NCBI GenBank assembly: GCA_903813345.2
Contig: CAIIXF020000007.1
Span: 7,445,730 to 7,509,729 of the forward strand
Source: Owenia fusiformis
Lineage: Eukaryota > Annelida > Polychaeta > Sabellida > Oweniidae
DNA length: 64,000 bases
Direction: 5' to 3'
The notes under the pieces are model-generated. The model was not told the DNA's origin and did not search any database. It saw only the letters and a program-made list of their open reading frames with translations. Every line of letters begins with the position of its first letter. Within the stretch, counting starts at the first letter, position 1. Shown in pieces: positions 26,481 to 60,391 of the stretch. The translations under genes were made by a program, and so were the position numbers.

Positions 26481-26613
26481 CAAGGCATTAACATGCAAAA
26501 TGTCACCACCTGTCACTTGTTACAGATGCCAACCACCAAACACCAACCACTGAACACCATACACAAAAACTTGGAGGCAATAACAATAAGCCACCACTTG
26601 AGGTGTTGACATA
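26481..26613 (-). repeat. ACCACCACAAG-type MITE, copy 6 (inverted)
   Basis: It begins CAAGGCATTAACATGCAAAA and ends near CCACCACTTGAGGTG, the reverse complement of copies at 7239 and 12702. Confidence 0.65.
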
Positions 26614-27599: not shown

Positions 27600-28076
27600 T
27601 ATGATGACTAGGGTATTGTTTTTACAACCAATTTGACACAGGTTGTCATGACTACTCCTGTATCTCCTAGAACCAAGGATACCACACAGAGTCAATTTGA
27701 CATTGGTTGTCATGACAACTGTCTCTCCTAAAATCAAAGATGTCACACAGGGTCAAATTGACATTGGTTGTCATGACAACTGTCTCTCCTAAAATCAAAG
27801 ATGTCACACAGGGTCAAATTGACATTGGTTATCATGACAATTGTCTCACCCTAACTTAGAAAAGTAGGGTCCTTTCTATCCAGGTTGTCATGAGTACTGT
27901 CTCTCCTTTAACCCACGTAGGGTCCACTTGATGCAGGTTGTCATGACTGCTGCCTCTTTCAACCAAAGACACCACACCAGGTCAATTTGACATAGGTTAC
28001 CATGGTAACTGTCTCTTCAACAACCAAAGATGCCACACAGGGTCAACTTGACACAAGTTGTCAAGCCAACTGTCTC
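27600..28076 (-). repeat. Tandem array copied from the TRRAP stop-codon region
   Basis: Read on the - strand, about eight units of 53-61 bp follow the TRRAP stop. Each repeats the pattern GTCATGACAACC, GACCCT, CATCTTTGGTT and AGAGACAGT, which is the end of the coding exon for residues SHDNLCRMDPAWHPWL plus the first bases after the stop. Units near the exon resemble it most in the CATCCTTGGTTG part; two middle units are almost identical to each other. The array would lie in the 3' UTR. Confidence 0.8.
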
Positions 28077-28186
28077 TTACAACCAAGGATGCCAAGCAGG
28101 GTCCATTCGACACAGGTTGTCATGACTATTTGCAGCAGCAACTAATGTACTCACACGGCTCTCAGCACCATCAAATGTTGCCAAAT
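28077..28186 (-). CDS. TRRAP: TRRAP last exon, FATC tail
   Basis: The acceptor TTCTTGCAG precedes an exon of 2 nt plus 35 codons and stop. It completes RLQ-N with the previous exon and encodes LATFDGAESRVSTLVAAANS followed by HDNLCRMDPAWHPWL, the conserved TRRAP C-terminus. It lies 8.7 kb from the preceding exon. Its final ~50 bp are the parent sequence of the tandem array that follows. Confidence 0.92.
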
Positions 28187-31100
28187 CTGCAAGAACAAAT
28201 TTTTAAATCAAATATTAAAACAAGGCATTAACATGTAAAATATCACAACCTGTCATTTGTTACAGAAGCTGACCACAAAAAACACCAATCACGGACAGCC
28301 ATCCACAAAAAGGTTGGAGACTATTACAATATGACACAACTAACGGTGGTGATATAATAATCTTTCTGACATACTGTCTATAAATACATAGACTATCATT
28401 GAGTAATGACATTTGAATTACAGTAAAACCTGTCTAAGTGGAACACCTTTGGTACTTCTAAAAGTGTTCCATTTGGGGGTGTTCCACTTATAGAGGTTCA
28501 TTCAACATTAAGTCAGTCGGTTTTGGGACTCTGAAAAGTGTTCCACTAATAGATGTGTTACAACATTTCCTTTAGACAATGTACATCTAATTGTCCCTTT
28601 AAATGACTGCAGGGAGAGACTACAGTGTATATAGTAATATACTGCATAAAAGATGATATTACAAATGGTGAAAAGTGATAATAATATAAGTACAATTAGT
28701 GTTGAATATTTCAACGATTTAGGAAAATTTATTCATGTTGAATATTGGCAAACAACAAAAATTATGTCCTTAGTAAAATGACCACTGATAAAGTAGTTTG
28801 AGAGAATGATAGTGAATGTGACTGACAAATGACAATGCTAACAGTCTAAGAGATAACTTGATGCCTAATACGGGGCCGAATACTCCCAGGGGAACACCAG
28901 CTTGCATGTTAGATTCCCATTAATGCCCATCATTTTGCTCAATGATTGCAGCCTCATTTCCTCTTAGGATATCATGAGAAACAGCAGTTTCATTATCTGG
29001 TATTTCTGACTCGATATGGGTAAACCATGCGTGATATGACAATCGCATTGTGATTTTCATCATCTCCGATGAGAAATCACTTAATAACATTTGATGCCAT
29101 TATTATTACATCGAAAAGGAAATAATCACGTTTATTCACACATTTTCAGTGAAAGCGAATATAACACTCATTACTTCCCATTGGATAACACTATGAAGGT
29201 TATATTTTCAGATCTTTAATTTTACAAATCTGGCAAAAAATTAGGCAATAGTCAAATAATGATTAGGCAAAATTACCACTTATACAGTTATGTGGCAATG
29301 ATTTAGTGATTACATTCAGTCGCAAATGTTAGTCATCATATAGAAATTCAAACAGCAATCTCAACAGTTCTCAACAACTTGAATTTTAAATGAAATACAG
29401 ACGAAAAGGACCCGGTGGTATGAAAAATACCCCCTGGGACAGGACGTCTAATCTACATACCAATATTTGGTCCACAAATTATGGAGTACGTTTCAAAGTG
29501 ATATTCCCAAATGTAAAATGTCAACTTCGGAAATGATTTCTCATCTCAATATAAAACTGATAGCTGCACTTGGTTAATGTTATAGCATAATGAATCTTTC
29601 AAATGTGACTAACTATAGATGTAATGCAAAAGTTCACTATATGTATAATATGTGGTCATAATCATTTTTGTGAACACAGCAGGCCCGTAGCAAGGGGGAT
29701 TCGCAGAGTTCGGACGAACCCCTCCTGGCCAAAATTTTTTTCAAAATCATGCAGTTTTCACAAGTGATTTTAGCCATATTTGGGCCAAAATTGTCAAATG
29801 TGAACCCCCCTGGAAATTTTTGAGACTTAACCTCCCCTTGGCAAATCCTGGCTACGGGCCTACGTACACAGTATCGATAAAACAGTTGCAAGTATGTTAA
29901 CCAATGAATCGGAAAATCCAAGATATTAAACCATTGGGTTTATGATTGTGGCATCACAAAGTCACAAAATTGCTATAACTTAGGAGTGACCTTTAACCAG
30001 ACTTTTAAATCAACTAAGTAGTTTTGTTCTTCCATTAAAGCTATTTAGTTTCTATGATATCAATCACTGGATTGCATGTTATATATTGAATGAAAACAAA
30101 AATGTACTTCATTACTAAGAAATAATAAAAAAACAAAATAAAGACATTAAGAAAAATATTATCGCAAGGAGTCGTCCTAATAAGAATGCATTTATTGTGT
30201 TTTCCATATTATGATTAAACCACCTTTGTTGATAAGAACAATTTTATACTTTTCCATATCAAGCCCACAATTTATAGCTCATTATTAAAGTGATATTCCT
30301 GGCAAGATCATTTCTCTCATTATTTGGTAGCAATAACTAATTTTCACTTTTTCAAAATAATCATTTTTGCTCTTGATCATGGTATAAGGTTGGTATTCAC
30401 CCGTCGGGATGATATGGGTAATATCCCTCGGACGATATTGATATAAAGTGAAATATTGATATCATCCTTGTGATATTCCCCATATCAAATCCCTCCTGGT
30501 AAATAACTACTGTATAGTATATACTTTCCATACTAAGCAAAAGACAGAATAAGGTTTTGATAAGGTCAATATTGATCATTTAGAAATGTAGTGCTCATTT
30601 TCAGTTAACATTGGTAAAGCTGCCATTTTTTCAGATTTCACACAGGATGTGATGTCATCGACTGCCAAATTTTATAACCTTATCCAAGAGTGATTGGCAG
30701 CCATTATTCATAGTCGTTACTTCGTTGCCTGGTGTAGAGCAATTTAGTAAAATTATTTCTGTAAGGTTCTCTTTGGACCAAGTGTTTTTGTTGGAAGATG
30801 GACATCCAGAAAATATTTCAGATATACGTATGCTTGATTAACCTTTGAGAAAATCTAATAATCTTTATCCTGTAAAATAATCTCCAAGATCAACAATGGA
30901 ATACTTTAATAATATACAATTATTGACCTCTCCAGAGGTTTACTGTCAAAATTATATCCCGAGACTGTAAACCGAGACCGTAGGTCGAGGTTTACAGTCG
31001 AGGGATATAATTTTGACAGTAAACCGAATGGAGAGGTCTATAATTGTTTTGTTAGTCCGAAGAATATCTTAGATTTTTCTGACCCTTGAAGTTGACTTGA

Positions 31101-34100: not shown

Positions 34101-37100
34101 TGGCTACAAAAAATTTGCAATAAGAAAATCAACTTGCACCAAAACAGGAGATAAAAGATAACATAAAAAAACGTAACCATGACAAAATGCCACATCCTGG
34201 TTGCAATTACAAAAATGTAACCATTTGTTACAGGTGACAAATGCTGATCACAAAAATGGTAGCTACACCAATATGTCACCATGTGATGTGCAATTTGTGT
34301 AATCTTTATTTTAAAAGGCTAATATCTAAGATGTAAACCTCATAAATTCACTTTTTAGTAATAAATCCAGATTAACCATGACTTAGTATGAAATATTTTA
34401 CCACTTTGTGAAATTCAAAATCCTTAGAGTAACATAGAAAATGTAACATACACTTTGTTATAATCTTAAAAGTTCAAGAATTGGCCTTAGAGATCAATCA
34501 AATTCTGTATACTATTTTGGAAGGAGTGCTATATATTAGTATATTAGAATATAGTATTGAGATAGGATTCAAAGGGCCAAGGAATGACAATGTTGTATGA
34601 AACTTCGGGTTAGATTAATGTTAAAATTCTCGTATATGTGATAATATCAAAGGGTTAAAACACATTAAGGGACATCACAGTCAGCACGCTAACAAAGTGT
34701 CTATATGATCAGAAGTTAAATGCATTTGGCTTAGGAGTCACGATTTGTCATAAGTGATAATATATCAATAAAGGCAATGACATGTTTTATGCAATCACAT
34801 ATCATTTTTAAGGCAATGCGTAAGTCTATTTTAGAAGAATCCGAATATGAAATGTTTCCCAAAACACTCTTTAACCGATCATTCAGTGGAAGTTGATATC
34901 CATAAAATCGCTACTTAAGCTTAAATTCACCACTGAGTGGGTCTAAATATTTTTATATGAAACGTCAAGCTTGAATGGCAAATAGATGAAAAAGTTCTAA
35001 AGAACCCAGACAAGTCAGACAGGCCTGTATATCAAGACATGATTAAAACAGATGGATCATATATCAATTTAAAGTTCAATTTATTTTACTCGATCACATG
35101 GTATTGCATGTGAAAAGAACATTTAAAATGTCACCATCGAGCCAGCTTCAAATCAATTTCTGTCTGTATTTTTAAAGTGACACATCCTTGTCTAATATCC
35201 TACTTATTAGGCATTATTCTTCAGAAATACTCTGAATCTTATACTTTACTATCGTCACTACTCAGTTTTTTAGAATTGAAGCAAGTGGGCATTGCACCCT
35301 TTGAAAAGAGGGTATTGCACCTTTTGAAAAGAGGGTTTGCACCCAGATGACAATGAGAAAAATCATTGCATATTTTGACCAACTTTTTGAATAATAGTAT
35401 CTATTGCTTTATTCATTACTAAGTAATGTTTTATGGAGACAACAGGGGGATGTAAATGATTTATCTACCAAGGTCGAGATCTGAAGAATTTATTTCCCAT
35501 TCTCGACCTAGCTACTGATGCATATTCTTTTAAATTTTATAGCAAGGGTCATTGTCCTGCTATTGGACAGCTTATTATGCCCTGGTATAGGGTATTATAG
35601 CTAGGGTCACTTTCGAGAAAAATCTTGGAAAGAACAGTGATTTTTCTTAACATGACTACCGTCACAATTTTCTAAAAATGTGAAAATTAGAATGGGGCAA
35701 AATCAGTGAAAACAGAGCAACATGTTATGATATCTGACTTGTCACGCTCCTTTGTACAATCATCCAACAACTAGATTGTTATTAAGTAATTTAGGAAGAC
35801 ATTTTCACCAACTTTAAGTAATTAAACCTTGATTTAGCAAAGAATATATGAAATAAATTTCAACAGGGATAAATGGGAAAGCTTTTACCAGATTAAATGG
35901 CACGATTTAATGGGGCTTTAATAAATGAAATCTCCAGGAAAAAGGAATGGATAAATGAGTTATTTAGTAATGAACCCGTCAGTCACTTAAAGTCATTTAT
36001 GGACACACAATTCCGGGGTCATATCTAGAGCGTAAAACTAAAACCATTCTAGTGTCTCTTGTAATAAAACAACTGAGATAATTCCTAGAATCGCCACCAA
36101 ATACAAACTTTCATCAACCTAAAGGAGGAAAAATACTGCTTTGAGTATCATACTGGATTCAATCAATAGCCAAAGGATTGATAGAAACGTCCCAATATGT
36201 CCAGCCAATAGTCATTTGCGATCCAGACTAAACGAAATAGGATTGCCAACCACGTGGAAAATGCAGTAACTTAGTAGTATTGATAAAATCTGGAGGTCGC
36301 TGAAGCTTATAAAGTATGAAATAAAGCTGACAGTTTCCTAGATTCAACTCATTAATCCAACTTTTTATTGCAATTTATTTTCATAAATAAATACAGTTTT
36401 TGATCAAATTCTTCAGAATTGACACACCACAAAAATAAATCGCAAAGTTTATCACAGGCATAAACAATACAAAATGGCAGATATTAACTTAACAACACAT
36501 AAATATTGCTACAGGATTGGTTAATAAGCCATGTGATTGAGTATATTATCTTGGAACGCTATCTATACGCCGGTTTAGAAAGACAATGATTGTTACAAGA
36601 AATTCATTGGCTCTCTGGCTTTATTTATAAGCACTGTCTCAAATGTTTAACATTAAATTCTGAATCATAATCCTTTTTGTTGTGAGTGGTACAAAGATAT
36701 TTTCTGGAACAATTAAAATAATAAAATAAAAAAATTAACCCGTTTAAATCCAAAATCGGTTTTGTTAGATGGGTTGTCTATTTCATGAAATTTAATTGTG
36801 AAACTCGAAACAATCATTTATACAAAATACAGCAGCAGACTTACTTTGTAGTCTTGTTGAGATTGCAGAAACAGCTTTGTTGACCATGGCTATGAGAGTC
36901 TCTCCCTCCATGTCCACAGGCTGTGAGCCAGGGTTGGTTTCATCATGCTTCTACAATACACAATACACTCAGGTATAATACACAATATCCTCAGTTGCAA
37001 TACACACAATACTTCATGTACTAGTACCATGCACAAAATCATCAGTTACAATACACAATACACTCAGGTATAATACACAATATCCTCAGTTGCAAAACAC

Positions 37101-40100
37101 AATACCCTCAAGTAAAATGAACAACACAGTACTAGTGGCCTCGCATAAGATGGCTATACACAATGGCTATACAATAAACTCTCATAAAAATATTTTTGTG
37201 AATTTAACCTAGTGACAAAAACATAAACAGCTGTGGAGAAGAGATGATCTTTACTGTTGTTCAGTTGAGATTTTATTTTCAAATATAATAATATTTGCTA
37301 TAATGCCACCTTTTTATAGTCTCTGGTGTTTTTATTTGCTTTATACACTGTACTATCACTGGGATCAAGTTAACACTGTAGTCTTGTCTGATAATTCATA
37401 TAACAGGTTTGTACAATGTATTTTCAACAGCTGTAGATTTACGTATTGGTATATTAGCCATGGGCTAATCTCAATATCCAGAACCTGACATGGGATATAA
37501 CTTATTTATTTACCTTTTTATGCCATGTAATGTACTCATCCCTGAGTATGGCCCGAAGCAGACTAGTTAGTTTATATTGTGGCTGTACGAGACACCTGGC
37601 AGCGGAGATCATTGAAGCAGTAAGTGGTCCTGAGACACCTGTACTTGTAAGGAAGTCAGCGATGTTTGGCGTCAACCGAAATGGCACGGGTCTGTTGGCA
37701 TCAAGCTCTCCTAAAATAAAGGAATTCATTTGAATGCGCTTATAATAGGAATTTGATGTAAGTAATATCAAAATAAATCTCATTTGTTTTTGTACTTGTT
37801 TGACAGTTTTGACATCTCTGGTAGGTTAAGGGAAGATGATGGACATTTCTACAGTTTATTAGCCCAAATAGAGAATGAGTGACCATCATTTTCTAAGCAA
37901 GCATCCAGGGTGTACCAAAGACAAATTCTTTTTGAAGTGCTTGAACAACACTTTTAGAAAAATGGTTTTTCTCCTAATTCCATTATAAATTAAACTTAAA
38001 TGATGAAGACATGCATTGTTTAGGTATTAATTTAGCAATTGAGAGAGACTTTTTGGCCCAGTCTGTACATACCTGATTGGTCATCAATGTCAAACTTGAA
38101 GTATGCCACATTGAGATATCCACAGTCTTGGTGTAAATACATCATGTCTGGGTTCATACGGGACAAGTGCAGTACAAACTCTGCAAACCCAGATAACGCT
38201 AACTGGATCGTGAACTAAAAGGGAGTGCTTCACATGTTAATTAACTGGGTTTAAACTGGTTTATTTATTATAAAATCTCACAAGGGTAGTTGGTATCAAC
38301 AATGATAGCTTGCAGTTCAATAAAACAGTATCATTATATCAATCAAATTAACATACATATAATAATAATGAAATTGACAAGTTACAATTATCAATTGTAT
38401 AAATTATTGTGATTCTTATTGACTAGTGTTACTTTGAGCACAATCTGACAATATACTCACAGTTTTTCTAAATGTCCAATAATCAGTCGCATTTGGGAAA
38501 GCATGGCAGGCCCATTCTTTCATAAGGCCCCTGGGGACCATGTTAGTCTGAAACTCCTTGAGGATGTCCCTAAGCACCTGGTGACTGGCTTGAGACCCCC
38601 TGGCCTGCACTGTCGCTAGCCTCTCATAGTACCTAGCTATTGGTGCATCATGCTCTATATCTCGTTTCATACAGCGCTGAAAATGTAGTTCCATAATAAT
38701 GAAATAGAAGATATAAAGAAAGTACAGGCCAGGAAGATTGTATTTCCATTGAGTCATTAAAACAATGCTTGGATTCATGATGATATGTTTAAAAGTACAA
38801 ATGATTATTTGATAGTAAGTAAACTCAAAGGCTGGTGGAAAATATCCAAAAATGCTGTATTCACCTGTTTATATACATCTAGTAAAGATACAGAGGCAGG
38901 ATTATCTTCCACTAATCTCATCTGCGGTGACACGGCAATCACGCGAGGAACTGTGAAATGTAACAGTCTCCTACACGTTTCCTTCTGCTTCCCAAGGAAC
39001 AAGTTCGCCATCCTCAATAATTGCAGCACCCGTTCTTCACGACGTGACTCCGTCAAACATGCATCATTTACGACCAAATATGGGTATATGTTACCATTAT
39101 GCCCTCTGATGTAGAGCCGACGTGCTGCTGTATTGTGCTTCTGGACGATCTCGACCCGTGGCATGAAACGTGCAATCTTAACATAGTAATGGCTATGCTG
39201 CAAGATAAACATAAATAATATAGTTAGTTATCCAGGCTTTAAATAAACAATGTGGAGTTGACAATATTTCATCCTAGCTACAGTAGTGTTCTGCTTAGTC
39301 TAGAACAATATCAAATTTTTAAAATGGAAACATTTTCATTTCAAATTGTATCATTGATTGAATGTGATATTGTGCATTATAGATATTAATAGATCTGACA
39401 GTGGTACCCCAGTGCCCCTAGATCTGATTGTGGTACCCATAAGAGACAAACAATATAGCACTTTTTTAAAGTGCAATAAAAATAAACATACTTTGGGAAG
39501 CAGGAACTCCCCAGGCAGCTCAACCTCTGCTGTGCTGAGAGAGAAGTTACTGAGGAAGCGACATTTCTCCTCAATAAGGAACCATTTAGGTAGAAGTTTA
39601 GTCTTTGCCTCCAAGATTTTAATCCATTTCTTCAGTTTGTTGATGAGATTGTGAAGTCTCGTAGATCCCGCGACACTAAATAAAAAAAACAGATTAGGTA
39701 ACGTAAAATCAGCTTCTACTTATTTTCGACTCTATATTTCCCAATATTCTTTTCTTTGATTCAGTTATAGGTACAATATAAATTTTTAACCTTCTAAATA
39801 CATGTAATCTTGTACCAAAACATTATATGTTCAAAACTGCCTATTCCATTGAAGTGATTTGTGAGCTATCATTTACATACATGTACATGTAAGTGATGAA
39901 ATAAAATCGTTAGTTTATAAGAAAGAAATTATAAAAGAACATGTAAATCCGAAGAATTCCTGTATCCAGTTATGAGAAATGGTAAAAACATTGAAACATT
40001 GTCCAGAAATATTCATATTTATTGCTTTGGCTCACTATGAATAGTTACACATGCTGAGTACATGTAAGACAACATTCAATATATTAAATATTAGAATGAG

Positions 40101-43100: not shown

Positions 43101-46100
43101 GACAGTTTGTAACTGCTTAACTAAAAGTCATAAAACAGCCATTAAATACACATCAACCCACTATAATTCAAAAACAGAATCACTGAATTATTCCCTTTCT
43201 GTATTACCCCCCTCCCCTAGGATAACTCATATATCCCATACCTGTTGTCTTATCTTCTGGAAACAGTCTACTATGGGTACACTAGGTATAGTATGTATAC
43301 GACTAAGTGAATCCAGGCAGACACCAGTAAGGTGGTGTTTTCTGGCTATCTTCCCATAGTGAATAATGGCTTGGGCTGATGCATGTACACCTAGCATTGA
43401 GTGGTTAGTGTTCTACAATAGGAAATACATTTTTGTGATTATTGCCTGAATTTATTCAATGATAGGGTGGGTGTTGGTTACAAAGCATATAGTGCATGTT
43501 ATAATATACAATTAATCCATACAATTAATTATAAGATACAATTAATCTATACAATTAATTATAAGATACAATAAATCTATACAATTAATTATAAGATCAG
43601 TTTATCTTCAAAATGCTGCTCAACATACATTTTTGGATTTTAGAATGAGAGGTTAACATTACATGTACTTTGAAAAAATATCATTGTTTTTAATCGACCC
43701 AATATCTATCTATATTTTGAAATCTATACTTACATGGTCGTGCTGAGAATGTGAGTCATAGTGGTTAACAATGAAATGATAATGATGTTGCCTCTATGAA
43801 TCAATACTTACAGGGTCATGCTGAGAATGTGAGTCAAGTGGTTAACAATGAACTGATAATGATGTTGCCTCTATGAATCAATACTTACAGGGTCATGCTG
43901 AGAATGTGAGTCATAGTGGTTAACAATGAAATGATAATGATGTTGCCTCTATGAATCAATACTTACAGGGTCATGCTGAGAATGTGAGTCAAGTGGTTAA
44001 CAATGAACTGATAATGATGTTGCCTCTATGAATCAATACTTACAGGGTCATGCTGAGAATGTGAGTCATAGTGGTTAACAATGAAATGATAATGATGTTG
44101 CCTCTATGAATCAATACTTACAGGGTCATGCTGAGAATGTGAGTCAAGTGGTTAACAATGAATTGATAATGATGTTGCCTCTATGAATCAATACTTAGAG
44201 GGTCATGCTGAGAATGTGAGTCAAGTGGTTAACAATGAACTGATAATGATGTTGCCTCTATGAATCAATACTTACAGGGTCATGCTGAGAATGTGAGTCA
44301 TAGTGGTTAACAATGAAATGATAATGATGTTGCCTCTATGAATCAATACTTACAGGGTCATGCTGGGAATGTGAGTCAAGTGGTTAACAATGAATTGATA
44401 ATGATGTTGCCTCTATGAATCAATACTTACAGGGTCATGCTGAGAATGTGAGTCATAGTGGTTAACAATGAAATGATAATGATGTTGCCTCTATGAATCA
44501 ATACTTACAGGGTCATGCTGAGAATGTGAGTCAAGTGGTTAACAATGAACTGATAATGATGTTGCCTCTATGAATCAATACTTACAGGGTCATGCTGAGA
44601 ATGTGAGTCAAGTGGTTAACAATGAACTGATAATGATGTTGCCTCTATGAATCAATACTTACAGGGTCATGCTGAGAATGTGAGTCATAGTGGTTAACAA
44701 TGAAATGATAATGATGTTGCCTCTATGAATCAATACTTACAGGGTCATGCTGAGAATGTGAGTCATAGTGGTTAACAATGAAATGATAATGATGTTACCT
44801 ATATGAATCAATATTTACAGGGTCATGCTGAGAATGTGAGTCAAGTGGTTAACAATGAATTGATAATGATGTTGCCTCTATGAATCAATACTTACAGGGT
44901 CATGCTGAGAATGTGAGTCATAGTGGTTAACAATGAATTGATAATGATGTTGCCTCCATGTAAAGATGTCGCTCCAGTGTGATAAATCATCACTGATCAT
45001 TGGCAGACGATTTCTCCAGGTTTTCACGATGGCTTTCATGTCATGTAGACTTGATTGGCGACCAATGTTAGCTGGTTGGAGGCCTTGGTTAATCTGGGCA
45101 GCCTCTTGCAGTTCCATAATCTGCTGAGCAGCCTAATTAAAATACAAATATGGATACACAATTACCAATGGGAAAAGACTAAATTGTTACTAAACACACA
45201 TATTTCTGATTTTAAAACTCTCATCAGAAGATTGACAACATTGACATAGATGACATTAGAAAAGTTCATAGTCTGGTAATTTTAATTCTGTTTTTTTTAG
45301 TATTCATTGTCACAAGACTGTATTCATTTTTATTTTAGACATTTCGAATACATGCTCCATCCATGATCACTAAATATTTTAAAATAAACAATACTTATGT
45401 TATTGATTTTAAAATATTTAGTGATTATGGATTGGAAACATCTAAAATAAGTAAATACAGTCTGTGACAATGAATACTAACTAACAGAATGACATAGATG
45501 GTTAGAATATCTTTTGAAATGTTGAGGTATATAAAAGAAAAAAAATTAAAAATTGCTTATTAACTTACCTGTAATAAAGGAACATGTATATGGGAGACAA
45601 TGCTTGGAAGACGACGCCATTCCTTGATGGCTAAGTTACTGGATAATTCAACCCTCTTCTCAATCTGCAAGAGACAATTATCAAACTTTCTGTGTTACAT
45701 GTTCTCCCTAAGAATATTTTCAAGTGCGTGTAAAATTCTTATCACAATTCTGTTCTTAACTGATCAATCAATTGAATCTTTAAATAATTATTCTCAACAT
45801 TTTCTTGAATTGGAAACTAAAGAAACTTTAAAAAGTAATTTTAGAGTATATGAAGTGAATTATACATGCATCTCAATTACTTTTTGGTAAACTTTTGTAG
45901 AGTTAGGAAATTGTAATGACAGGCAGATGCTGCAGATTTACTAAGTGGAATTCTAACATTTTAGATATAGAATAAATGAGCAGCATTCTTACCATATTAA
46001 GATGATGGTCCTCTGGGTGACAGATAGCTATATAACCCCTGTAGAGATTCACCCTCCACGTCATCTCCTTGGGGCAGCTCAGCTCCACCTATAATACATA

Positions 46101-47592
46101 AATCAAACCCTGTAGATATGGTGCTTAATAGTTCAAATATTTAAGCAAGCATAGCTTTTAGATAATTTTTTGGAAGAATGCAACTGAAATGGAAAGCTCT
46201 GAAAACTGTATGTGTAAAATACAATACACAACAGTGGTCTCCACATGTTTTTTCTCAAGTGGGTGCAAAATTCTCATTGTCACAATTCAGACCCAAAATA
46301 TGCCTATTTTTCATGATTTTTCTCATTTTCAAGTTAGTGCAAATGCATTTTCAGGGGGGTGCAAGCATGTTTTCAAAATCTCAGGTGGGCGCTGCGCCCA
46401 CTTGTTTCAATGCTGGCGAGATCACTGCACAATAAATTTGATTCCATACATAAGAGAGTGATACAGTAAACTATTGAAGTATTACTCTCTCAGTAAACAA
46501 TGAAAGAGGTTTTCATGTACAAGTGTTTACTATATACTGATTTCAATATATTGTTCTATTTTTCAAATTGATGATTCATGAAATCACTTTAAGGGGAATC
46601 CGCTTTAATCGAACCCCACTCAAATAATCATTGACCACTTTCTGACCAATCAAAATCCGAATTGGAGATTGAAGCTCTAACAATTAAATACAATTACCCA
46701 CCTGGGCCAAGGCCTCCTTCATGAGACCCCAATTTGGTACCCTCCATGCACTCTCCAGCACTAGATGGGGGTTAGTATTCCCCTTGGCATTGGCATAGTC
46801 CAGGAGTAAATCCCACTGGTTAAGCTCCTTGCAACACCTAATAAAAACAATCAATTTATCCTTCTGAATTTCAATTGTCTATGTACTAGTTTATGATCCA
46901 TTATGGTCATTGTGTAATCTATTTCATTCCGCTATTATGTATTTTGGTTTAAAGTATATTTAGCTTACTTTATCCAATGATTCTCCCACAGTTTGTACTC
47001 AGGCATTATAGATGGAGATGCTGGTCCAGAGTTATGCTCAGCTCGGGCCTTTGACATTGCCTGAAATACACAAACAGTGTTCAATTTACATAATGAAAGA
47101 GTTATGCTCAGCTTGGGCCTTTGACATTGCCTGAAATACACAAACAGTTCTCAATTTACATAATGAAAGAGTTATGCTCAGCTTGGGCCTTTGACATTGC
47201 CTGAAATACACAAACAGCTCTCAATTTACATACTGAAAGAGTTATGCTCAGCTCAGGCCTTTGACATTGCCTGAAATACATAAACAGTTCTCAATTTACA
47301 TAATGAAAGAGTTATGCTCAGCAGGGGCCTTTGACATTGCCTGAAATACACAAACAGTTCTCAATTTACATAATGAAAGAGTTCATGACTATTTGATAAT
47401 ATTTCCTCTCATTTTCAATATTACAAGACTTACCGCTTCCAAGTTTGTCTGTGCTTGTTCAAAGAATCCATGTTGTTCATAGGCAAGGGCAGTATTTGTT
47501 TCAGTGTACTTTGCCCTTTTCAGCCACAGACCAGCAGCCATATCTTCCTCCTTCAGTAGGGCATACAGGTCACATAGGGCATCTAATGTCTC
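28077..47592 (-). CDS. TRRAP: TRRAP, transcription/transformation domain-associated protein (C-terminal part)
   Basis: Twenty exons in coding order: 47592-47434, 47060-46969, 46837-46702, 46088-45993, 45664-45569, 45132-44896, 43412-43242, 42873-42719, 42485-42186, 41944-41796, 41528-41349, 41092-40905, 40495-40188, 39675-39492, 39197-38865, 38676-38461, 38214-38073, 37710-37514, 36950-36845, 28186-28077. All junctions are GT-AG and all phases agree; the total is 3555 nt, or 1184 residues plus stop. The order and sequence follow vertebrate TRRAP closely (for example EIVQKHNTAARRLYIRGHNG, DANRPVPFRLTPN, NLCRMDPAWHPWL). TRRAP is the large PIKK-family scaffold of SAGA/STAGA and NuA4/TIP60 acetyltransferase complexes and binds activators in the nucleus. 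Vertebrate TRRAP has about 3800 residues, so about two thirds lies beyond the right edge. The frame is intact. Confidence 0.95.
28221..28358 (-). repeat. ACCACCACAAG-type MITE, copy 7 (inverted)
   Basis: It starts CAAGGCATTAACATGTAAAA and ends near GGTGGTGATATAATA. It sits immediately upstream of the TRRAP last exon's branchpoint region, so its insertion shortened the original distance between intron sequence and acceptor. Confidence 0.6.
28421..28555 (-). repeat. pogo-like MITE, truncated
   Basis: It begins CAGTAAAACCTGTCTAAGTG after TA and then follows the family inverted relative to the 18485 copy; it stops at TTCCACTAATAGATG without the second terminal repeat. Confidence 0.6.
29680..29861. 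mobile_element. CAGGCCCGTAGC MITE, complete copy
   Basis: Ends CAGGCCCGTAGCAAGG and CCTGGCTACGGGCCT are complementary, with a 182-bp body containing AAAATCATGCAGTTTT and GTGAACCCCC. A second, shorter copy is at 62566-62713. The palindrome keeps a short - strand ORF open; it is not a gene. Confidence 0.7.
29866..29925 (+). repeat. 55-bp direct repeat, left member
   Basis: TACACAGTATCGATAAAACA and the following GTATGTTAACCAATGAATCG recur with few changes at 31997-32058. The two copies bracket 2.1 kb that includes the Crypton-like fragment. Confidence 0.6.
30917..31046. repeat. Inverted repeat with CAATTATTGACCTCTCC arms
   Basis: The arms of about 50-60 bp (CAATTATTGACCTCTCC, TTTACTGTCAAAATTATATC) are complementary to each other around a short loop. 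The right arm touches the 3' end of the - strand ORF at 31340-31038, so both are probably parts of one mobile element. Confidence 0.6.
31038..31340 (-). pseudogene. Crypton-like tyrosine-recombinase N-terminal fragment
   Basis: The 100-residue ORF starts MTSLSDDKMAAASTSRF and contains DEDIISLLESKDSQNTKKNL with KLLVDFAQESNLTPLSEL, a pattern I associate with the N-terminal core-binding region of Crypton-type and KCTD1/QRICH1-like invertebrate proteins. There is no catalytic Arg-His-Arg-Tyr part; the frame ends in the flanking inverted repeat. A non-autonomous element that keeps only the first domain is the simplest reading. A small host gene captured with it is an alternative. The family call is from memory of the motif, not from a search. 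Confidence 0.45.
31997..32058 (+). repeat. 55-bp direct repeat, right member
   Basis: Copy of 29866-29925, with TACACAGTATCGATAAAAAC and TATGTTAACTAATGAATCGG. Confidence 0.6.
33660..33860 (+). repeat. Degenerate TTCAAGGTT-rich microrepeat
   Basis: About a dozen variants of TTCAAGGTTGAA/TTCAGGGTTGAA follow at irregular 14-20 bp spacing. No coding frame or terminal repeats. Confidence 0.5.
34155..34285 (-). repeat. ACCACCACAAG-type MITE, copy 8 (strongly diverged)
   Basis: TTGTTACAGGTGACAAATGC and ATATGTCACCATGTG recall the family core in inverted orientation, but both ends are unclear. Confidence 0.35.
36951..37110 (-). repeat. Tandem intron repeat touching a TRRAP splice acceptor
   Basis: A 49-bp segment starting TACAATACACAATACACTC is present at 36952-37000 and again at 37039-37086, each built from AATACACAATA sub-units. 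Its edge is the pyrimidine tract of the acceptor for the exon starting at 36950, so the duplicated sequence includes the tract but not the exon. Confidence 0.6.
37514..39675 (-). other. TRRAP: TRRAP PI3K-like pseudokinase region
   Basis: Five exons (39675-39492, 39197-38865, 38676-38461, 38214-38073, 37710-37514) encode about 358 residues, from GSTRLHNLINKLKKWIKILE to ITWHKK. The fold is that of a PIKK catalytic domain, but where active kinases have the GDRHxxN loop and DFG this protein has LHLSRMNPDM and FKFDIDDQSG. That absence matches the known lack of kinase activity in TRRAP/Tra1. Confidence 0.85.
40740..40872. mobile_element. 133-bp palindromic MITE (GGGGGYCRTTWACAG ends)
   Basis: GGGGGCCGTTTACAGAAACTT at the left faces AAAGTTTCATTTAATGACCC at the right. 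It sits in a TRRAP intron, 33 bp past the donor of exon 41092-40905. A second copy at 50110-56599 is split by a large insertion. Confidence 0.65.
41349..41528 (-). CDS. TRRAP: TRRAP Ser/Thr/Pro-rich symmetric exon
   Basis: The exon is 180 nt with phase 1 at both ends, so skipping it keeps the frame. It encodes 60 residues dominated by S, T, P and A (SSSPTPPTSSATPGPTE and PPPTPSSATPTSTPATL). The next exon continues the linker with SSASASMSGSNMPGQSM before the conserved PIKATAPMWRCSRIMHMQRD. In vertebrate TRRAP, QRERYKSD runs almost directly into PIRATAPMWR, so this is an extra disordered linker of about 80 residues. Splice sites are good, and the ORF is intact. Confidence 0.8.
43502..43600 (+). 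repeat. 30-bp tandem repeat in a TRRAP intron
   Basis: Three to four copies of a unit like AATCTATACAATTAATTATA lie between exons 43412-43242 and 45132-44896. Confidence 0.7.
43726..44895 (-). repeat. Tandem array of a TRRAP exon 3' end plus its splice donor
   Basis: Fifteen extra units of 76-78 bp adjoin exon 45132-44896. On the - strand each unit holds the last 60 exon bases (ending CAGCATGACCCT) followed by about 18 intron bases beginning GTAAGTATTGATTC. Almost every unit therefore carries an apparently good 5' splice site; the one near 44196 has CTAAG in place of GTAAG. Units alternate between a CTATGACTC and a CTTGACTC variant in much of the array, a two-unit higher-order pattern. The true exon copy is the sixteenth unit. 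Confidence 0.92.
45297..45481. repeat. Foldback element in a TRRAP intron
   Basis: Arms containing TTAGTATTCATTGTCACA, ATTTTAGACAT and CACTAAATATTTTAAAAT are complementary across a loop of about 15 bp. About 185 bp, no ORF. Confidence 0.65.
46232..46427. mobile_element. MITE with CAGTGGTCTC ends and CACAA duplication
   Basis: Ends CAGTGGTCTC and GAGATCACTG are complementary. CACAA directly flanks both ends (46227-46231 and 46428-46432). The body contains TCTCAAGTGGGTGCAAAATT and a GGGCGCTGCGCCC palindrome. It is in a TRRAP intron. A decayed relative may be at 45705-45750. Confidence 0.65.
47061..47385 (-). repeat. Tandem array of a TRRAP exon 5' end plus its splice acceptor
   Basis: About four extra units of about 70 bp adjoin exon 47060-46969. 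On the - strand each contains intron bases ending TGTATTTCAG and then the first ~33 exon bases starting GCAATGTCAAAGGCC. Every unit keeps the AG acceptor. Confidence 0.9.
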
Positions 47593-48500
47593 CTGGAAAT
47601 AAATAGACATATAGGTCACACAGGGCATGGAAAGAGATATATAGATCACACAGGGCATACTATGTCTCCTGGAAAGAGATATATATGTCACACAGGGCAT
47701 ATTATGTCTTCTGGAAAGAGATATAGAGGTCACACAGGGCATATTATGTCTCCTGGAAAGAGATATAAAGGTCACATAGGGTATGGAAAGAGATACATAG
47801 GTCACACAGGGCATGGAAAGAGATATATAGATCATACAGGGCATACTATGTTTCCTGGAAGGAGATATATAGATCATGTAGGCATATTATATCTCCTGGA
47901 AAGAGATATATAGGTCACACAGGGCATATTATGTCTCCTGGAAAGAGATATATAGGTCACACAGGGCATATTATGTCTCCTGGAAAGAGATATATAGGTC
48001 ACACAGGGCATATTATGTCTCCTGGAAAGAGACATAGAGGTCACACAGGGCATATTATGTCTCCTGGAAAGAGATATATAGGTCACACAGGGCATATTAT
48101 GTCTCCTGGAAAGAGATATATAGGTCACACAGGGCATATTATGTCTCCTGGAAAGAGACATAGAGGTCACACAGGGCATATTATGTCTCCTGGAAAGAGA
48201 TATAGGTCACACAGGGCATATTATGTCTCCTGGAAAGAGATATATAGGTTACACAAGGCATATTATGTCTCCTGGAAAGATATACATATATAGGTTATAT
48301 AGGGCATATTATGTCTCCTGAGAAAGAGATATATAGGTCACATAGGGCATACTATGTCTGCTTCGAATAGACATATAGGTCACACAGAACAAACTATGTC
48401 TCCTGGAAACAGATAGAACATTTAGGCCAAATATAGATGTATAGGTCACCCAGGGCATATTATGTCTAATGCAAATAGACAAATGCCTTTTGTAAATAGA
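47593..48500 (-). repeat. Tandem array of another TRRAP exon 5' end plus acceptor
   Basis: About 20 units of 42-44 bp, with some shorter ones of about 30 bp, adjoin exon 47592-47434. On the - strand the unit reads CTTTCCAG|GAGACATAATATG, then CCCTGTGTGACCTATATA; the exon itself begins GAGACATTAGATGCCCTATG. The unit is thus the acceptor and about 30 exon bases. Most units keep CCAG. The array decays with distance from the exon, past 48300. Confidence 0.9.
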
Positions 48501-48512
48501 TGTATAAGTCAC

Positions 48513-50109: not shown

Positions 50110-51002
50110 GGGGGTCATTAACAGAAACGTCATAAAGTTATGACTTTGTAAATCAATTGTTGTAACCATGGATATGATTACATTTAGGGAACAATGGAGT
50201 TAACAAATTCTTAACTTTTAGTATGGGAGCAAAGGTAATTCCGTGTCCTTTTTAGAGGCGAGCTAAGCGATATATATTTTTATGAACTATATGTGATACT
50301 TACCAAGAAAAATGATGTTGGCAATTCTGAATCCGCGACGGCGTTGCTATGGTAACCAAGTAAATATGCCACGCCCACTTTTAGGGGCTCTTATCAGTGT
50401 TTGGCCCTTATCTCCTTCATTATTGCTCAGATTTCAATGAAATTCACACCAAATGGAAGGTAATAGATAATGCAATCAAAATATATTAAGTTGGCAATTC
50501 TGAATCCGCGGCAGCGTTACTATGGTAACAAAGTAAATATGCCACACCAACTTTTAGGGGCTCTTTTCAGTGTTTGGCCCATATCTTCGTCATTATTTCT
50601 CAGGTTTCGATGAAATTTGCACCAAATGAAAGGTAATAGATGAAGCAATCATACAGTTCATAAAATATGCAAATAGGGTGATTTGCATCTTAATTATGAC
50701 GTCATAACTGTTTGTTTTTGTGTATTTTATTTTAATCATGATGTATAAATCTGCGAAATTATTATGTTTAAAATGGTCAGTAATGCTTTTAAAGCCCCCG
50801 ATAAATCGGGCTACGTATACCGCCGTGTTTACATTAGGCGATTAGAAGAGTTTATTTTTTACTTAGGTATGCAAGCAATATCAATATTAGGCCTTCATGC
50901 ATGTACTTGTGTGTACAATCAGCATGCCCTTGCCCTTCAATATTATTATATAAGCCAGGCTATTCAAGTACAACATAATGTACTCTATTTATGTGTGTAT
51001 TA

Positions 51003-52602: not shown

Positions 52603-53935
52603 TTACATGGGAATACAATTCCCTGGGAAACAAAACAAATACTTTTTATATGTTCAAAATGAGCCATTTAATTGATGCATACACTTAATACCTTCATATA
52701 TAAACATCTACAAAGTATATCTAATAGTCATTTTCAATTCCAATGGTGAAACTTGCCTGGTGACGATTATACGGGAAATCAACACGGGACGATAGTTGTA
52801 CACCTTCCTGGCTTACCTCTGAAGCCTGTACCCTGTAATCTCTTTATATAGGTTAGCGAGAGCGCTGCGCCTGCGCAGTTTTAAATTTTGGCGCACACTT
52901 TAACTAGTTAATTAGTTGATTTCTTTTAGTTGAGTTTATTAGTTTATTACATTCATACATGTATGGTCATAAAACATTGAATAAATGTAATGAAAGTGTC
53001 CAATTGACGCTGTTGCTATGGTAACAGCAAGTAGCAAAATGATCCGCTGTAAACAAGAGAATTCTTTAGGAAATGTTACAATTTGACCATTTGACTGGCA
53101 TGTATTCTTTTAAAAATTTGGTGACAGAAAATAACCTAATAACTATAGAAAATTATTTAATTTGGATTGTGTTATATTATGATGTCATAAGGGCAATTGT
53201 TAATCAGGGTCGCAGCAAGCTCTCAGTCGGGGGGGGGGGGGGGGGTTCGACACAATTTTCTTTTAAGATTTTGTTTAATTTTACAAAAATTAATGCAACT
53301 TCCTTCAAAACTGAGCTAGAAGCTTCGAGTCAAATGCATTTTAAAACCCTTCTTCTATCTAATGGTTCTATTTTTATTGGTTACAGGGGGTGCACTCATT
53401 ACACCCCATGGCTATGCCTATGTTAGCTATGGTAACCAGGTGAATATGCCGTCCCCATTTTTCACGACTTTTCCTAAGTTTTGCTTCTATCTGTGTCATC
53501 ATGATAGCTCTGGTGTATATGAAATTTTCATCAAATGGAAGCTAAAATTTGCTTTTCTTGCTGGGTTTCTTTACAGTGTCTGGTTCTTTCCCTTTGGCAT
53601 TTGCGCTAAGATATTCATACTTGTAAAGAAATGGAATGAGAATCAATCATAGTTTTCAGCTTTGACCTCATTTTATGGTGAATGTCAAAGGACAATGTAC
53701 CATTTTGGAATCATTTTGAGCAATTCTACCTAATTTCAAGAAAATAATCACAAAAGCAGCTATGATACCATAACGAGTATCCCAGTCAGTTAATCTACAT
53801 TATCCATGCATTTTCTGATTCACCTGGCATACTCACCTGGTTACCATAGCAACATCATATTGGATTAATATAACCCCCTCCCATAAAGAATAAGATAGAA
53901 CCATTAGATAGAAGAAGAGCTTTAACCCATTAGTG

Positions 53936-55547
53936 TCTATGACCCGAATATGGCACGTTTTTTGAGTATATTGGAAGATGTCAGCACTGTATCATTAGTA
54001 CTTTATATTTCTTAGAAAAGAAGATACTAGAATAGTAGATTTCTCCAAAGTTCAAGGTCATTTTGTTTTTTGCAGACATCTTTTGAATTTTTTCACAGGA
54101 AAGGGCCCAATGTCCCTCAAATTGATATATCAGTCCATAGGCCATAGGGGGCCACTACCATGCTATTGAGGGCCACTTGCATGTTTTGGATGCCATCTGG
54201 ACCACTTAAATTTCTTTTTGGACCACATGGATCTACTAAGATGTATTTGGGGTCCACGGGGCTCCACTGGAATACGTTTGGGGCTTGGGGGCCACTGGGA
54301 TGCTTTTAGGGGTCACAGGGGGCCACCAGGGTGCTTTTGATGGCCATGAGGAGCTATTTGCATACTTCTGGCGGCCTCGGGGGGCCACTAAGATGGTTTT
54401 GAGGGCCACTGGGGGCCAATAGGATGCTTTCAAGGGCCACTTAGATGCTTTTAGGGGGCATAATTGGGCCCTTGGATGCATTTTGGGCCACTGGGTGTCA
54501 CAGGTATGCTTTTTGGGGGCCACTAAAATGATTTTGGGGTCCACAGGGGCCCATTGGAGTGCTTTTAGAGGCCACCTGGGCCCATTGAGATACTTTTTGG
54601 GGTCACAGGGGGCCAATAGGATGCTTTTGGGGGCCACCAGGATGCTTTTAGGGGGCATAACGGGGCCACATTTGATGCTTTTTAGGCCACTGGGTGTCAC
54701 TAGTATGCTTTTTGGGGGCCACTTGGGTGGCAAATGGGAAGCTTTTTGGGCCACCGGGGGCAACTAGAATGATTTTGAGGTCTACAGGGGGCTTTTAGAG
54801 GCCACTGAGATGCTTTTTGGGGCCACAGGGGTCAATTGGATGCTTTCATGGGGCCACTAGGATGCTTTCAGGGGCCACTAGGATGCTTTTAGGGGGCATA
54901 ATGGGGCCACTTGGATGCTTTTTTGGGCCACTGGGTGACACTAGTATGCATTTTGGGGTCACTGGGGGGCAACTGGGAAGCTTTTGGGGCCTCTAGAATG
55001 AGTTTGGGGCCATTTGAGTGCTTTAAGAGGCCACTTGGGGCCACTGAGATGCTTTTCGGGGCAACGTTTTGGGGCCACAGGGGGCCACTGGGTTGATGTC
55101 ATGGGTCGCAGAGGGGTACTAGGATACTACTTTTGAAGGCCTCATACCAGCAAAAATTTGTTTTTTGGGGCCACTGGGGACAACTAGAATGCTTTTGAGG
55201 ACAACTTTGGGGCACTGGAATGCTTTTCGGATCAAATAGGGCCACTGCCATGCTTTTGAATGTCACTGGGGCCTATTTAGTATTGAATTATAACAAACAG
55301 ACAAGTTTAAGTTAATGACAGTGTAAAATTCGAGTTTGTTAAAGTTATGATATTATAAATAGGTTTTACAACCACGAAATCATAACCTCTTAACCCAAAA
55401 TGTTATCATGGGCACTTGTGTCTATGTCCTGTATTTGGGATGCCTCTAGAACAAAACTAATTGTTTCTTAGTTATGCTACCCAGGTTAGAAAAACATAAA
55501 AATTATTTTAAAAATACTAATGCATTCAATCTGTTGTCATTATTGGG
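53936..55547. mobile_element. TTAA-flanked, piggyBac-like insert in the right foldback arm
   Basis: TTAA lies on both sides (53932-53935 and 55548-55551). The ends CCCATTAGTG and (complement) CCCAATAATG form a short terminal repeat. Across the insert the foldback arm sequence resumes exactly (AGAAGAAGAGCT-TTAA-AATGCTTTTGAC), as the left arm at 53338-53360 shows. No transposase; the middle is a G-rich tandem array. Confidence 0.65.
54150..55280 (+). repeat. G-rich minisatellite (GGGGCCACTNGGATGCTTTT)
   Basis: Several dozen variants of a 20-bp core, GGGGCCACTAGGATGCTTTT, are arranged in irregular 20-60 bp units. G runs of 3-5 recur every few bases on the + strand, so quadruplex formation is plausible. 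Open frames on both strands here are low-complexity by-products. Confidence 0.8.
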
Positions 55548-56888
55548 TTAAAATGCTTTTGACTTGAAGCTTCTAGCTCAATTTTGAAGGAAGTTGCATC
55601 AACGTCTGTAAAATTCATCTTGAAAACATATTTGGGTTGCTTATGCCACGATCGCCCCCCCCCCCCCCGACTGAAATCTGGCCGCACCCCTGATTAATGA
55701 TTGCCCTTATGACATAATAATATAACACAATCCAAATTAAATAATTTCCTATAGTTATTAGATTATTTTGTCATCAAATTTTAAAAAGAATACATGTCAG
55801 TGAAATGGTCAAAATGTAACATTTTCTAAAGAATTATTGTTTACAGCGGACAGTTTTGCTACATGATGTTACCATAGCAACAGTGTGAATTGAACATAAA
55901 AATTATTTGAATAATACATGTTTCATTACATTTATTCAATTTTTCTATGACCATAAATGTATGAATGGAATGAACTCAACTAAAAGAAATAAACTAGTTG
56001 AAAACATTACTGACCATTTTAAAGACAATAATTTCACAGAGTTATACATCATGATTAAAATAGAATATGCAAGAACAAACAGTTATGACATCATAATTAA
56101 GTTGCAAATCACCCTAATTGCATATTTTATAAAATATATGATTGCTTTATCTATAACCTTTCATTTGGTACAAGTTTCATTTAAAACTGAGCAACAATGA
56201 CGAAGATATGGGCCAAACACCGAAAAGAGCCCCTAAAAGTGGGTGTGGCATATTTACTGTGTTACCATGGTGACGCTGCCGCGGATTCAGAATTGCCAAC
56301 TTAATATATTTTGATTGCATTATCTATTACCTTCCATTTGGTGTGAATTTCATCGAAATCTGAGCAATAATGAAGGAGATAGGGGCCAAACACTGAAAAT
56401 AGCCCCTAAAAGTGGGCATGGCTTATTCACTTGGTTACCATAGCAACGCCGTCGCGGATCCAGAATTGCCAACATCATTTTTCTTGGTAAGTATCACGTA
56501 TAGTTCATAAAAATGTATGTCGCTTAGCTCGCCTCTAAAAAGGACACGGAACCTCTTATTTGGACTTTTGCTCCCAGACTATTTCTGTTACTGTCTCCCA
56601 GGGAATTTCATCTAATACTTATTAATTGTAATTTCAAGAAAATTAACTAGCATTACATTTCTGCAATTCTCACATTGCTCTTTAAAATCTAATAAGAAAG
56701 AGTAATTAAAATTCCAATTCCAATATCTCGTTTACCATAATCCTGTATTAGTTCAATTATTTATATTACTTCATAAGTGTGCTTTGTAAAATTTGATTAA
56801 CAATAGATGAGTTAATTGTTCATAATTTAAGTAAATAAGATAGATCCACGGTGATCTTTGTTGAAAACTCAACGTAATCTTGGAGGAG

Positions 56889-56894
56889 TATAAA
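56889..56894 (+). promoter_or_regulatory. TATA box of peptide gene A
   Basis: TATAAA in the context GGAGGAGTATAAATGAGG, identical to that before gene B, with conserved flanks (CTTGGAGG upstream, TGTCC downstream). Conservation between paralogs supports function. Confidence 0.75.
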
Positions 56895-56919
56895 TGAGGT
56901 TGTCCATGAGAGACTTAAT

Positions 56920-57009
56920 TACATTGTCAAGAGGTCGGGTCTGAAGTTAAGGAATTCTCATCACTAAAACAACATAGATAGGTAGTACATAATCTCACCG
57001 TACACAAAG
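56920..57009 (+). other. Non-coding first exon of peptide gene A
   Basis: Estimated from the TATA box to the donor AAAG|GTAAG at 57010. The matching segment and donor of gene B end at 59509. The exon has no conserved ATG frame, so it is taken as 5' UTR. The transcription start is an estimate. Confidence 0.55.
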
Positions 57010-57364
57010 GTAAGAGGCTATTCTTGATAATTTGATACACACATATATATAAAAGGAACTAAAGTAGCATTTGTGAATTCAACTGCCAGCTGACAGTTTA
57101 ACCTACTATTCTCTGGCAAACATATTCAAATATGAAGGGAATTTAAATATGAATAATACTATAAATATTAGGTTAATCCCTCATCCAGCAGTAGAATTTA
57201 AGAATGATACCCAAATTTCCAACTCTGATAAAAAATTCAGAACACGGCATTTGAGCCATCAATAGGCTTCTTCTATACAAACTTTATTTTCTGCAAAAAC
57301 CTGAATTTGAAATGATCATTCATCTGGTATTTAGCGGTGTATAATATGTGCTATTTTATTACAG

Positions 57365-58417
57365 ATGAACAATATGTCGTATTCTATTGCAGATGAACAA
57401 AATGTGTGCTTCTATGTTTGTGTTGTTGGTTGCACAATGTGTACTATTGTATTACAGATGTATTATATGTGTGCTATTCTTGTCCAGATGAACAAGATGT
57501 GTGCTTCTATGTTTGTGCTGTTGGTTGTACAATGTGTACTTCTGTATTACAGATGTATAATATGTGCTATTCTTTTACAGATGAACAAGATGTGTGCTTC
57601 TATGTTTGTGTTGTTGGTTGTACAATGTGTAGTATTGTATTACAGATGTACAATATGTGCTATTATTTTACAGATGAACAAGATGTGTGCTTCTATGTTT
57701 GTGTTGTTGGTTGTACAATGTGTACTATTGTATTACAGATGTATAATATGTGCTATTCTTTTCCAGATGAACAAGATGTGTGATTCTATGTTTGTGTTGT
57801 TGGTTGTACAATGTGTACTATTGTATTACAGATGTATAATATGTGCTATTATTTTACAGATGAACAAGATGTGTGCTTCTATGTTTGTGTTGTTGGTTGT
57901 ACAATGTGTACTATTGTATAACAGATGTATAATATGTGCTATTCTTTTTCAGATGAACAAGATGTGTGGTTCTATGTTTGTGTTGTTGGTTGTACAATGT
58001 GTACTATTGTATTACAGATGTATAATATGTACTATTCTTTTTCAGATGAATAAGATGTGTGCTTCTATGTTTGTGCTGTTGGTTGTACAATGTGTACTTC
58101 TGTATTACAGATGTATAATATGTGCTATTCTTTTTCAAATGAACAAAATGTGTGCTTCTATGTTTGTGTTGTTGGTTGTACAATGTGTACTATTGTATTA
58201 CAGATGTATAATATGTGCTATTCTTTTTCAAATGAACAAAATGTGTGCTTTTATGTTTGTGTTGTTGGTTGCACAATGTGTACTATTGTATTACAGATGT
58301 ACAATATGTTCTATTCTTTTCCAGATGAACAAGATGTAAACTTCTATGTATGTGTTGTTGGTTGTACAATGTGTACTATTGTATAACAGATTCATAATAT
58401 CTGCTATTCTTTTACAG
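57365..58417 (+). repeat. 93-bp array of the signal-peptide exon start and its acceptor
   Basis: Eleven extra units precede the true coding exon. Each holds TTTTACAG|ATGAACAAGATG, then the bases for CASMFVLLVV, then a second acceptor-like TTGTATTACAG|ATG before the next unit. The 93-bp period equals 31 codons, so most of the array is one open frame (57365-58339). The unit after 58328 has a stop right after MNKM. The array lies in the intron of gene A, directly upstream of the real acceptor. Confidence 0.9.
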
Positions 58418-60298: not shown

Positions 60299-60391
60299 AT
60301 GAAGAAGATTTGTGCTTCTATGTTTGTGTTGTTGGTTGTACTATGTGTACTATTGTATTACAGATGTTTAATATGTGCTATTATTTTCCAG
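60299..60391 (+). repeat. Single extra signal-peptide unit in gene B
   Basis: It starts TTTTACAG|ATGAAGAAGATTTG and matches the 93-bp unit of gene A. Gene B has one such unit, gene A eleven. Confidence 0.8.

Follow-up and report, generated by a model that had tools for sequence, protein, structure and literature searches.

Tandem copies of exon edges, named "mirages", have been described in amphioxus. There they occur at both edges of exons in Adh3, in the globin genes BflGb6 and BflGb9, in troponin C and in PGBD5, with units of 10 to ~160 bp (PMC3087553, PMC3902484). In the excerpts of these papers used here, splicing is reported as undisturbed, array lengths vary between haplotypes, and a role in intron gain is proposed. 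Like structures were analysed in a stretch of 64,000 nucleotides (the window) of the annelid Owenia fusiformis, located at C7:7445730-7509729 of a 498-Mb, 525-contig assembly. Five tandem arrays (A1 to A5) adjoin exons of TRRAP and of a small peptide gene, and every unit holds an edge of the coding sequence (CDS) together with part of the exon. These arrays are very probably exon-edge minisatellites, i.e. tolerated neutral repeats and not spare splice sites.

The minus-strand gene of the window was identified as TRRAP; its exon at 39.2-38.8 kb is 100% identical to the Owenia protein P0002 (3872 amino acids), with 84% of the query aligned. Residues 2688-3872 of P0002 were mapped to 20 coding exons of the window, all on the minus strand, with GT-AG introns and identical translation. 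The remaining 2687 residues were placed in 53 exons within 200 kb beyond the window, again with identical translation, the GT-AG borders being imposed by the mapping script. Coordinates termed extended continue the window numbering into these 200 kb (262 kb altogether). In total, 73 coding exons were mapped, the coding part covering extended 28,077-142,596. The 72 introns have a median length of 340 nt, and 62 are shorter than 1 kb. Since P0002 maps with GT-AG introns and identical translation, the edges adjoining the arrays (acceptors 47592 and 47060, donor 44896, stop codon 28077-28079) are known exactly. The Q codon preceding exon 47434-47592 corresponds to the CAG that precedes the donor of exon 93115-93255 (extended), and the intron in between (window 47,593 to extended 93,114) spans ~45.5 kb. 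At least four small, Cys-containing peptide genes (58418, 60392, ~65.83 kb and 91877) are nested in this intron on the opposite strand. The following exons and genes carry the functional edges in the window, the TRRAP exons being taken from the P0002 mapping:

28077..28186, minus strand: terminal coding exon of TRRAP with the stop codon, functional copy of A1
44896..45132, minus strand: TRRAP exon with the functional donor of A2
46969..47060, minus strand: TRRAP exon with the functional acceptor of A3
47434..47592, minus strand: TRRAP exon with the functional acceptor of A4, starting at 47592 directly after AG
58418..58678, plus strand: small Cys-containing peptide gene 1, 86 amino acids, functional copy of A5; its relative P0121 is 53% identical
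60392..60649, plus strand: small peptide gene 2, 85 amino acids, a paralogue of peptide gene 1

The initial annotation had reported five arrays copied from exon edges in two genes on opposite strands. Both statements were borne out, the two genes being TRRAP (minus) and the nested small peptide gene (plus). Tandem Repeats Finder (TRF) recovered all five arrays (27629-28122 in pieces, 43721-44960, 47028-47383, 47601-48415 and 57338-58467), and a row-by-row display showed the CDS edge and part of the exon in every unit. The coordinates given at that time left out the functional terminal copy of each array, and a sixth array at 60283-60475 had been missed. The corrected list, together with one counter-example, is as follows:

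27600..28122, minus strand: A1, ~8-9 units of ~60 bp, comprising the codons of the last TRRAP residues, the stop codon and the first part of the 3' untranslated region (UTR)
43721..44960, minus strand: A2, 16 units of ~77/78 bp, comprising the end of exon 44896-45132 and the donor GTAAGTATTG
47028..47383, minus strand: A3, 5 units of 70 bp, comprising the acceptor and the start of exon 46969-47060
47562..48500, minus strand: A4, ~20 units of mostly 42 bp, comprising the acceptor (TTTCCAG) and the start of exon 47434-47592
57338..58467, plus strand: A5, 12 units of 93 bp with a 28-bp sub-repeat, comprising the putative acceptor, the start codon and the coding sequence of a hydrophobic N-terminus
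60283..60475, plus strand: A5b, the sixth array, ~2 copies of the 93-bp unit of A5 at peptide gene 2
36952..37118, minus strand: 22-bp array abutting the acceptor of TRRAP exon 36845-36950, with no exon sequence copied

In TRRAP, the arrays thus copy two acceptors, a donor and the region of the stop codon; A5 copies the start/acceptor region of a peptide gene. In each, the functional copy (for A5, the presumed one) is the terminal one and is joined to the exon body. A unit crossing an exon-intron boundary, which defines a mirage, is present in A2, A3, A4 and A5 and, loosely, in A1, which crosses the CDS end only. The earlier statement that every unit includes an exon boundary therefore applies to A2-A5; A1 spans the end of the CDS and not that of the exon, contains no splice site, and has its extra copies in the 3' UTR of TRRAP. 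The acceptor in the A5 unit is predicted by comparison with the paralogue P0121, in which the annotation places an exon junction immediately upstream of ATGAACAAG. Higher-order periods of 155 and 387 were seen in A2, the copies of which are 97-99% alike, with GT lost in one copy. In A4, the majority of copies read GAG ACA followed by TAA or TAG, i.e. a stop at the third codon, and a few copies are truncated. Two further arrays in the TRRAP part of the window, 35283-35344 and 43499-43597, are purely intronic; together with the counter-example at 36952-37118 they show that nearby arrays are not all edge copies. A 334-amino-acid open frame running through A5 had been considered as a repeat protein; a second frame is also partly open, the last copies have a stop close by, and this claim was dropped.

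Edge arrays were also found in the extended sequence, in the upstream part of TRRAP and in the adjoining gene. The latter was named alsin based on matches to RCC1 and MORN repeats (above the Pfam cut-offs) and on an exon matching PH_alsin (E=2.7e-8; at 34.1 bits it falls short of the cut-off of 40); its exons were taken from open frames and not from an annotated protein.

Acceptor at extended 93255, minus strand: TRRAP, 63 bp, ~11 copies
Donor at extended 121167, minus strand: TRRAP, 39 bp, 4 copies
Donor at extended 120436, minus strand: TRRAP, 22 bp, about 6 copies
Acceptor at extended 134987, minus strand: TRRAP, 37 bp, 6 copies
Acceptor at extended 186825: alsin, 125 bp
Donor at extended 189506: alsin, 35 bp
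Acceptor at extended 207522: alsin, 30/61 bp

Both edge types are hit, as exemplified by donors 44896, 120436, 121167 and 189506 and acceptors 47060, 47592, 93255 and 134987. The 37-bp unit of acceptor 134987 forms two arrays ~700 bp apart in one intron (extended 134972-135191 and, with a further 11 copies, 135899-136308). A further six arrays in upstream TRRAP, similar in size, span no edge. TRRAP thus contains eight edge arrays, one of them over the stop codon, i.e. seven splice-edge arrays per 72 introns. Other arrays of the 262 kb (e.g. 148749, 226522, 102390 and 106287) were viewed by eye without gene models and were excluded from all counts. The TRF list shows no array in a gene at extended 169-177 kb, presumably KIF9-like.

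For comparison with other genes, exons encoding kinesin domains were used. A kinesin-domain search of the genome yielded at least 144 matches. One segment of the profile was matched 18 times at a spacing of 158-159 bp at C2:23266359-23269174 (L023), and the underlying DNA is the acceptor array of a gene that we take to be KIF4-like (unit 159 bp, 17.9 copies, 97% matches, 2.8 kb). From the domain-search list, 40 kinesin-exon loci (57,321 bp) were picked before their DNA was seen, roughly in list order with skips and thus not at random. Ten pairs among them lie less than ~10 kb apart and probably represent one gene each, and L045 is situated inside the KIF4-like gene. Clear edge arrays were present at 6 of the 40 loci (L028, L047, L048, L050, L053 and L055); L050 and L055 are probably in one gene, and the edges at L028 and L047 belong to a neighbouring exon. 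Degenerate donor copies at L035 (2.0 copies by TRF) were excluded from the tests, and no edge array was detected by TRF at the other 33 loci. Arrays near an edge and without exon sequence (L025, L027, L041, L051 and L054) were not scored as edge arrays. Altogether, the pattern was found on C2, C6, C7, C8 and C10.

The placement of arrays was compared with a null model of uniform placement, in which wholly exonic positions were barred and, for TRRAP, the actual density of edges was used. In the discovery set, i.e. the TRRAP part of the window, 4 of 7 arrays cross an edge versus 0.57 expected (P=1e-3, a post hoc test). A4 was scored here by alignment, its TRF call ending 9 nt short of the edge; by TRF coordinates alone, the count is 3/7 versus 0.71 expected (P=0.021). 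For replication, the arrays considered had to reach a TRF score of 100, a copy number of 2.9 and a unit length of 20 bp. In TRRAP outside the window, 4/10 arrays are edge-crossing (0.98 expected, P=0.0097); at a score of at least 50 the result is weaker (4/20 versus 1.16 expected, P=0.021). At the 40 kinesin loci, 4 of 12 arrays cross edges of the target exons versus 0.95 expected (P=0.0087), with each locus taken to have two edges and 200 nt of exon, and leaving aside L028 and L047, whose edges are those of a neighbouring exon. With all edges considered (120 assumed), the count is 6/12 versus 1.43 expected (P=6e-4). The unseen material combined gave 8/22 versus 1.93 expected (P=2.1e-4). The earlier claim that the arrays adjoin exon edges beyond chance is thus supported, as is a bias of array placement towards exon edges. 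The size of the excess, ~fourfold, is rough because two of the TRRAP arrays, having one unit in common, cannot be counted as independent, and because the kinesin loci are a non-random sample. A base-level comparison of duplicated sequence, with 31/40 identity required, gave 3 of the 40 edges in the window and 24.5% of the short-intron interior; it was uninformative, as arrays fill introns.

The bias could reflect a property of the edges themselves, which might be mutational hotspots for tandem duplication, e.g. through pausing, R-loops or repair coupled to co-transcriptional splicing. This explanation is possible, if doubtful. It is favoured by the edge excess over uniform placement and its repetition in TRRAP outside the window and at the kinesin loci, and by the occurrence of like structures in a distant phylum (PMC3087553, PMC3902484, as excerpted). 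The samples are small, however, and detection may favour edges; several arrays (36952-37118, extended 107854-107958, L051 and L054) adjoin an edge without crossing it, the ends of the units are found at many distances from the splice site, and A1 contains no such site. The more specific proposal of the initial annotation, that duplication starts at splice sites, is not supported as worded because the splice site occupies different positions within the unit, with roughly 7-131 nt of exon per unit as judged by eye, and because A1 is without a splice site. It follows from A1 that a splice site is unnecessary for array formation.

Alternatively, survivorship and detection alone might generate the pattern, duplications arising evenly, exonic ones being purged and arrays at edges being noticed more easily, with no bias towards edges. 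Among the TRRAP arrays counted, none lies wholly within an exon; purely intronic arrays are also present, and edges are dense because TRRAP introns are short. The null model, however, already bars wholly exonic placement and uses the real edge density of TRRAP, and 8/22 arrays versus 1.93 expected still remain. We entertain this explanation only tentatively.

A function of the extra sites, either as spare sites that buffer splicing or as decoys that tune expression via unproductive splicing, would agree with the intact AG or GT in most copies. The consequences of using such sites were counted for ten splice-edge arrays of TRRAP and alsin: among 94 alternative sites, 82 lead to a premature stop, 8 to a frameshift and 4 to an open frame (two each at 93255 and 207522). 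Unproductive transcripts from 82/94 sites are what is expected of a decoy. Spare sites whose use results in a stop or a frameshift, on the other hand, cannot rescue the protein, so that most copies could not restore splicing. Copy number also differs widely among the paralogous peptide genes. Splice dinucleotides deviated from the consensus of the unit in 6/236 cases (2.5%) and the remaining positions in 238/9055 (2.6%; Fisher P=1.0); this count comprised 13 arrays, with U3, A5b and those from the 40 kinesin loci left out. The splice dinucleotides of the extra copies thus diverge at the same rate as the other positions of the unit and show no detectable constraint. The suggestion of the initial annotation that edge copies are kept to buffer splicing was not upheld, and a function of the extra sites is very unlikely. 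A first version of the consensus test (2/208 versus 230/8565, P=0.18) was replaced because a wrong acceptor had been used in the peptide arrays and array U4 had been missed.

Some observations weigh against regarding the arrays as tolerated neutral repeats. The constraint count was based on length-limited copies only (e.g. 14 of ~19 extra copies of A4), so that losses by deletion are uncounted and weak constraint would be missed. A comparison with the functional copy instead of the consensus (8/264 versus 431/3696) suggested constraint; it was rejected as the flanks hold non-homologous sequence. At the four open-frame sites of arrays 93255 and 207522, extra copies may be included in the protein. 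Furthermore, tolerance alone leaves unexplained why edges are preferred to plain intron, so that a mutational bias may contribute.

An assembly artefact is scarcely credible: repeats commonly trouble assemblies, but scattered variants distinguish the copies, the pattern recurs on the five contigs named above, and the arrays (0.2-1.3 kb in the window, 2.8 kb in the KIF4-like gene) are far shorter than the PacBio reads, with an N50 of about 26-31 kb in the excerpted description (PMC9977687), of the assembly from which the window likely derives.

Tolerated exon-edge minisatellites remain the best explanation. A local tandem duplication would copy a segment of ~20-160 bp that includes a CDS edge. 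Splice site, start or stop would still be provided by the copy attached to the exon body, leaving the protein unchanged, and the extra copies would come to lie in an intron or UTR, where they would multiply and homogenise as any minisatellite. This sequence of events is our inference, as are array growth through slippage or unequal exchange, nonsense-mediated decay of mis-spliced products, and selective neutrality. At all TRRAP arrays, it is the exon-body copy that is read in the annotated protein, and the published Owenia annotation was, according to the excerpt used, built with RNA-seq-curated splice junctions (PMC9977687). No extra intron or micro-exon was found at the arrays in the annotated TRRAP CDS with its 72 mapped introns. 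Copies within an array are 90-99% like their consensus (13 arrays), and each gene has a unit of its own; the arrays thus look separate and recent. A bolder version, in which exon edges are true duplication hotspots in Owenia and, by convergence, in lancelets, the process being tied to splicing or transcription and ~1/10 of introns carrying an array that feeds alternative splicing and intron gain, is rather unlikely.

The peptide genes nested in the long TRRAP intron were characterised further. The product of peptide gene 1 is probably secreted, as judged by its hydrophobic N-terminus, and the same is suggested for the other nested genes by our reading of their N-termini. In a family search with two of the nested peptides, no family was matched. 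The single relative found, in one search limited to relatives sharing short exact words, was P0121, which is itself the fourth nested gene (91877); the family may be lineage-specific. The peptide-gene unit recurs at extended 65256-65874 and 90440-91355. The latter is a ~10-copy start/acceptor array ~500 bp upstream of the P0121 ATG, inside the annotated intron and detached from the exon; it may be left over from a gene copy that has been lost. In P0121, the first exon as annotated (MKNITTCHLLQ..., extended 89704-89990) resembles a many-copy dispersed repeat (others in the window at 26493, 3930, 28233 and 6321); it may have arisen by exonisation of a repeat or have been annotated wrongly.

Elsewhere in the window, an open reading frame for a RING-finger protein was detected at 17534-18130 on the plus strand (zf-C3HC4_3, E=3e-6). 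No relative of it was found by the search used; exon edges were therefore not available in this part, and its arrays are outside the test. The region 54120-55100 is GC-rich, with degenerate 21- and 31-bp repeats and long open frames on both strands. Tandem pairs of 173 bp at 50317-50651 and 56139-56473, with units similar by eye in inverted orientation, possibly mark the termini of a mobile element. Several unrelated places (9612-9813, 22602-22647, extended 122028 and 217223) share a dispersed 17-bp repeat, AAGTGGAACACCTCTAG or a similar sequence.

The precedents found come from individual lancelet genes and from human segmental duplications; in Owenia, the abundance of arrays in conserved genes, where simple sampling brings them to light, turns a curiosity into something countable. 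The arrays represent natural sets of competing, near-identical splice sites at a spacing of 22-159 bp, in which the choice of the exon-body site can be studied, and the seeding of new introns by tandem duplication becomes testable within one genome. Gene predictors and domain searches may miscount exons at such arrays, as with the kinesin exon matched 18 times.

Literature searches among open-licence papers yielded no report of exon-edge arrays in annelids. In an earthworm metallothionein gene, intronic minisatellites and duplications of exon 4 absent from the transcript were reported (PMC12783039); they may be related to the Owenia arrays, although the excerpt does not describe them as an edge array. 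Intron gain in potato RdRp according to the Rogers model (PMC4974935, as excerpted) likewise involves a tandem duplication that multiplies splice signals; in Owenia, by contrast, the units cross a pre-existing edge and no new intron was seen. Internal tandem repeats of human segmental duplications are also minisatellites on exon-intron boundaries. As excerpted, they were sought through differences in number between recent paralogues, and they alter transcripts, with 27 intron modifications (PMC2812944), whereas TRRAP, alsin and the kinesins are conserved, and no change is seen in the annotated TRRAP protein. The closest likeness is with the amphioxus mirages, a precedent of which the initial annotation was unaware: in both cases minisatellite-like copies extend over 5' and 3' exon edges, many with AG or GT kept (PMC3087553, PMC3902484, as excerpted). 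Owenia differs in being an annelid, in having eight arrays in TRRAP (one over the stop codon) and start-codon arrays in a peptide gene, and in a test that showed no excess conservation of the splice dinucleotides of the copies. This kind of array is already known; the phylum, the abundance and the constraint test are new as far as the searches show.

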